From NCBI GenBank assembly GCA_002686955.1, contig NYZA01000085.1:1-12265 (forward strand): 12,265 nt of DNA, written 5' to 3'. The stretch comes from Gemmatimonadota bacterium. GTDB taxonomy: Bacteria; GCA-2686955. The position numbers were made by a program, and so were the translations under genes. Within the stretch, counting starts at the first letter, position 1; every line of letters begins with the position of its first letter. Shown here one piece after another: positions 170-275 of this stretch. The notes under the pieces were generated by a model. That model was given only the letters and a program-made list of their open reading frames with translations. It did not search any database and had not been told where the DNA came from.

Positions 170-275
170 CTTAGGGTCCGCGCAAGAATAGCTTGTCATT
201 TGGCATCCCATCTGCACCACATCTGCGGCACATCTGGGCGCCAAGATGACAAGTTATTCTTGCGCGGACCCTAAG
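170..275. repeat. Long near-perfect inverted repeat (MITE-like or hairpin element)
   Basis: The left arm (170-204, beginning CTTAGGGTCCGCGCAAGAAT) is the reverse complement of the right arm (240-275). The exceptions are one position (G191, which would still pair G-U in RNA) and one extra base in the right arm. That gives about 34 paired positions around a 35-base loop (205-239). Inside the loop CCCA (207-210) can pair with TGGG (235-238), extending the fold. There is no T-run after the right arm, so it is not a standard terminator. No transposase lies in the window, and no target-site duplication was recognised at the borders. An arm this long with almost no decay suggests a recent or maintained mobile or recombination-associated repeat. 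Its family is not recognised. Confidence 0.9.
209..241. repeat. Three 11-bp direct repeats inside the hairpin loop
   Basis: CATCTG recurs at 209-214, 220-225 and 231-236, exactly 11 bases apart. The three units read CATCTGCACCA, CATCTGCGGCA and CATCTGGGCGC. A spacing of about one helical turn places each copy on the same face of the DNA, as is common for protein-binding iterons. The third unit overlaps the start of the right inverted-repeat arm. What binds here, if anything, cannot be told from the sequence. Confidence 0.8.

Follow-up and report, generated by a model that had tools for sequence, protein, structure and literature searches.

The window, by which we mean the whole 12,265-nucleotide stretch of DNA analysed here, carries a long inverted repeat near its left end, and the question raised by this locus is what such a palindrome is and what placed it there. 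A sequence-only reading had taken it for an orphan inverted repeat with no transposase nearby and no terminator T-run, and had offered a MITE, a recombinase site and a structured RNA among the possible identities. The inverted repeat is real. Its two arms, 170-201 and 244-275, have 2 mismatches over 32 positions, and pairing runs inward past a 1-nt bulge to give about 37 pairs in total. Folded as DNA, the element reached -43.4 kcal/mol compared to a mean of -14.8 for shuffled sequences (z -11.3), and none of 200 shuffles did as well. No inverted repeat in the window is stronger than the element proper, which spans 174-271 (98 bp, ends GGGTCC...GGACCC), while the four bases on either side of it, CTTA at 170-173 and TAAG at 272-275, lie outside the element and form CTNAG target flanks. 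Its parts, with the assignments argued below, are as follows.

174-271, + strand: probable MITE, 98-bp deletion form with the A end on the left, assigned from shared termini and interior and from alignment to the 179-bp form
174-199, + strand: left terminal inverted repeat GGGTCCGCGCAAGAATAGCTTGTCAT, one mismatch to the family terminus
246-271, - strand: right terminal inverted repeat GGGTCCGCGCAAGAATAACTTGTCAT (read on the - strand), exact family terminus
171-173, no strand: left target flank TTA (in C-TTA), assigned from the family-wide 3-bp duplication signal
272-274, no strand: right target flank TAA (in TAA-G), assigned from the same family-wide signal
200-224, + strand, bounds approximate: A-end subterminal motif TTGGCATCCCATCTGCACCACATCT, conserved in copies of the same genome and in elements of genome G150
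225-246, - strand, bounds approximate: B-end subterminal motif TTGGCGCCCAGATGTGCCGC (- strand), conserved in copies of the same genome and in G150
221-224, no strand: ATCT, junction of the missing 81-bp internal hairpin by comparison with the full form

No tRNA and no Rfam family at gathering score was found in the element, which disposes of a known RNA family; at E-value level only sub-threshold microRNA hairpin models appeared. A terminator was likewise rejected, since there is no T-run at the element and no terminator call, and no promoter or terminator signal was found near the window copy. Pfam detected no transposase among the window proteins that were checked, as had been noted before. 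The element is gene-less, and its family as a whole (86-180 bp) is too short to encode a transposase and has no protein family of its own.

Two other features lie beside it. About 40 bp downstream of the element is the likely start, near 318, of the right-hand gene (246-1325), which encodes a membrane-type protein with only a sub-threshold match to DUF4328. Just to the left is a second dispersed repeat (15-157, core 57-148) that is not palindromic and occurs at about 40 places in the genome with 74-88% identity, without codon-position bias or an unusual fold. This repeat was considered as an interrupted copy that might supply an empty site and was rejected, since its homology reaches the element at most and is absent beyond it. 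Several loci (L004, L083, L099, L208) share a further short sequence, GCAACAGGCTCCTAG, and ATGCGTGAGACATTTTCCC is present at two places; the genome seems rich in dispersed repeats.

The label of orphan did not survive a search of the genome from which the window comes (G000; 270 contigs totalling 4.28 Mb, with 84.5% completeness and breaks at repeats). The element as query gave 110 partial matches at dozens of places. Its terminus GCAAGAATAACTTGTCAT matched 94 times with at most two mismatches and the terminus GGGTYCGCGCAAGAATAACTTG 116 times; the reversed control gave 0 in both cases and GGGTYCGCGCAAGAATAACTTG gave 0 matches in 59 other genomes. The element is thus multicopy rather than a single copy at a conserved position, with well over 40 dispersed copies whose arms are conserved and whose main size classes are about 87, 98 and 179 bp. 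Pairing of termini, measured from GGG to CCC, yielded 41 elements of 86-99, 151 and 177-180 bp, besides which many copies are truncated or interrupted by a contig end. The 26-bp termini are conserved over the 41 paired copies, with a mean of 3.0 differences within an element. Full copies diverge pairwise by 14% on average, suggesting that most insertions are not very recent. Two further arrangements were seen: at C176 and C86 the element is reduced to about 40 bp, with two termini head to head, and at three places (C17, C131, C244) a terminus adjoins another element with 3 bp between them, as if one element had inserted in the target of another. One contig start (L002, positions 1-141 of C145) repeats the window's 48-bp left flank and the 98-bp element with one difference and then diverges from the window inside the right terminus; a chimeric assembly, a duplication or strain variation would account for it.

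The size classes appear to be related by internal loss. The consensus of the 179-bp form is a single continuous hairpin (z -16.3), and the window form equals it minus 81 bp, with a repeated ATCT at the join. Where the full form has CACATCT-[CCGG...CCAGATCT]-GCGGCACATCT, the window has CACATCT-GCGGCACATCT. In the 87-bp forms the junctions fall at CACATCT or CATCTGC repeats. The natural reading of these junctions is that the smaller forms would have arisen by slippage deletion across the hairpin. The same 98-bp form is present with a different flank at C55, so that this form may itself have moved, or the deletion may have recurred.

The flanks of the 41 paired copies show a target duplication signal. 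An exact 3-bp direct repeat was present at 22 of them, whereas 500 permutations of the right flanks averaged 7.3 such copies and reached at most 13; longer flanking repeats were seldom seen. The consensus of the flanks, C-TWA-GGG...CCC-TWA-G, describes insertion at CTNAG. At the window copy the two flanks, left TTA and right TAA, differ by one mismatch. When the joined flanks were searched for an empty site among the available loci, all matches were self matches or passed through a neighbouring terminus. In G001, the only close relative, there is no copy of the element and no detectable match to the neighbouring gene, and no orthologous locus was found. The dispersed copies and the 3-bp signal support the suggestion of a MITE made from the window sequence.

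The ends of the element are of a kind which we take to be ISAzo13-like, and the link to ISAzo13 was then tested. The transposase model PF07592 matched in 12 of 386 genomes, and the transposases concerned are named ISAzo13 by both Pfam (PF07592) and NCBIfam (NF033519). Several of these loci have a terminus of the window type where the transposase gene ends. In L181 of genome G150 the transposase stop codon falls inside the right end CTTAGGGTCCGCGCAGAAATAACTTCACATTC, which matches the window terminus at 20 of 24 positions, and L174 of the same genome is a complete 2.03-kb insertion sequence with two ORFs, CTA on both sides and a left end, GGGCTCACGCAAAAATAACTTGTC, that also matches at 20 of 24. 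Related ends were seen in ISAzo13 elements of Streptomyces plasmids (L191, L192), a Microvirga plasmid (L193) and genome G266 (L170). A search of plasmids with the bare terminus gave one match, which was judged to be chance. Identical 3-bp flanks (TTA or CTA) were present in four of the five ISAzo13 elements with both ends measured, consistent with the 3-bp duplications that ISAzo13 makes (PMC10045372). ISAzo13 is therefore the transposase family with matching ends that the sequence-only reading had looked to for a driver. Other ISAzo13 elements, L172 most clearly, have ends unlike the window terminus, and the close match is therefore to one branch of the family and not to the whole. Furthermore, the MITE interior matches no ISAzo13 interior seen next to the insertion sequence ends that were read, so the MITE is not a simple internal deletion of ISAzo13 and the claim is limited to "mobilised by".

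In two ISAzo13 elements of G150 an additional ORF of about 254 aa lies upstream (728-1492 in L174, 731-1492 in L181). Pfam gave no match for its first 180 residues, and its C-terminal portion corresponds to the N-terminus of the ISAzo13 transposase model. The second ORF overlaps or adjoins it, and the two are possibly joined by a frameshift.

In the genome of the window PF07592 matched only once, at a fragment about 140 residues long that contains a stop and shares 55% identity with the L174 protein. An intact ISAzo13 element was not found there, and the relic (C200) does not serve as direct evidence for the ends of the driver, there being no matching termini near it. Because about 15% of the genome is missing and contig ends interrupt repeats, an intact copy may have escaped assembly. 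The resident driver of the window's MITE family is now probably absent, and the broken transposase fragment, the only one found, suggests that the family is inactive or nearly so.

Insertion sequence and MITE occur together in G150, which by its kinship label lies outside the phylum of the window. There were 67 terminus matches in G150 (control 0). Those at L219, L224, L228 and L230 run into the 3' end of a transposase gene, and others form the ends of non-coding elements that measure 71 to 346 bp and have CTNAG-like flanks. Within G150 the insertion sequence and the MITE are identical at 30 of their first 32 bases. The G150 and window families also share subterminal motifs, TTGGCATCCCATCTGCACCACATCT compared to TTGACATCCCATCTTCACCACATCT at the A end (score 21, shuffled maximum 9) and CTTGGCGCCCAGATGTGCCGCAGA compared to CTTGGCGCACAGATTTGCCGCAGA at the B end (score 22, shuffled maximum 7), indicating that the two families are homologous beyond their outermost ends. 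This homology may reflect horizontal spread or common descent, either of which fits the sequences. In Lentisphaerae bacterium RIFOXYA12_64_32 the terminus matched 23 times (control 0); the interior there is different, also multi-palindromic, and no PF07592 match was found in that genome.

Taken together, these results indicate that the window feature is very probably a copy of a MITE that an ISAzo13-family DDE transposase mobilised in trans. The element itself is an ordinary kind of mobile DNA. It would be a short, non-coding, non-autonomous transposon, bounded by the terminal inverted repeats GGGTYCGCGCAAGAATAACTTG, that gets moved in trans; an ISAzo13 transposase would recognise both ends and mobilise the element, and insertion into CTNAG sites would duplicate the central 3 bp. 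Slippage between the ATCT direct repeats would have removed the internal hairpin of the 179-bp form, leaving the 98-bp form with both ends kept. We infer that the copies in the genome of the window were moved by a transposase of this family.

A different account would give the dispersed repeat a present role as a hairpin of structured RNA or DNA, such as an mRNA processing or 3'-end element, that is selected for its fold and not mobile. The continuous hairpin of the 179-bp consensus speaks for it, as does the behaviour of paired positions. Among 24 full-length copies and 72 pairs, 44 cells were doubly changed compared to 16.3 in shuffled data, and 18 pairs carried double changes compared to 4-8 when the arms were slid. 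The arms were also more alike within an element (3.0 differences) than between elements (3.9), a result matched by 0 of 5000 permutations. This covariation beyond the controls may come from selection on the fold, but subfamilies or correction of palindrome arms during replication can also give it. Changes private to one copy (15 A-C, 8 G-U, 23 transversions) showed no bias toward keeping pairs on either strand (p 0.21), which argues against strong selection after insertion. Strand-specific selection on an RNA was considered because G-U and A-C differed over all cells (33 and 95, respectively), and was rejected, since among private changes the difference is not significant (8 and 15, p 0.21) and the excess over cells was treated as shared ancestry, not evidence. 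The 3-bp duplications, the ends shared with a transposon, the lack of a promoter or terminator signal near the window copy and the many copies that are truncated or only about 40 bp long are likewise at odds with an immobile hairpin, which we consider very unlikely. Nor is an RNA gene needed to account for the element. Also unlikely, though less so, is the idea that the whole palindrome was kept as functional, either as a folded strand in ISAzo13 mobilisation or as a structured RNA, the gene-less elements having crossed phyla with their subterminal motifs kept.

The identity of the transposase can be questioned as well. A CTNAG target and a 3-bp duplication alone also fit other families, such as those related to IS5, and a MITE driven by another family with TNA-type 3-bp duplications would sit well with a genome that has no intact ISAzo13 element. 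Yet in the search made here, which covered ISAzo13 transposases, the terminus agrees with ISAzo13 elements at 20 of 24 positions exactly where the transposase gene ends, and one terminus is common to an insertion sequence and a MITE in G150; another driver is very unlikely. A long inverted repeat with a short spacer also recalls a tyrosine recombinase site or an integron-like attachment site, but the copies are dispersed and two-ended, vary in size and have target duplications, and in the loci that were read the copies did not visibly cluster with a recombinase. The feature is almost certainly not such a site, and the earlier suggestion of one found no support.

The assignment to a MITE moved by ISAzo13 names a driver for palindromic repeats that are otherwise annotated as unexplained hairpins, and gives one branch of ISAzo13 a usable rule for terminus and target (CTNAG, GGGYYCGCGCARRAATAACTTG, 3 bp). 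Related non-coding parasites in different phyla make the horizontal spread of gene-less elements testable, and the covariation of the arms offers a natural case for studies of palindrome correction in bacteria. The link of this MITE to ISAzo13 and its presence in a bacterium of another phylum seem not to have been described.

Among known systems, ISAzo13 (PF07592, NF033519) is similar in its termini GGG(Y)YCGCGCARRAATAACTTG, its CTNAG-type target and its 3-bp duplication (PMC10045372), whereas the window element is gene-less, only 98 bp long and has a palindromic interior unlike the insertion sequence interiors seen. Bacterial MITEs such as MITEAba12 (PMC6382973) are likewise short and non-coding, with terminal inverted repeats, target duplications, many copies and termini in common with an insertion sequence, which for the window family means insertion sequences of other genomes. 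The window family differs from them in having ISAzo13 ends and in that the whole element is a near-perfect hairpin. ISAzo13 and MITE are named together in a general survey of insertion sequences. REPINs are linked to RAYT transposases. REP and REPIN sequences (PMC3116915, PMC3733652) are similarly dispersed and palindromic, but the window family has 3-bp duplications and the ends of a DDE transposon. The repeat of Lentisphaerae bacterium RIFOXYA12_64_32 shares the termini CTNAGGGTCCGCGCAAGAATAACTTG and a multi-hairpin, non-coding interior with the window family, although the sequence of that interior differs and its genome yielded no PF07592 match.
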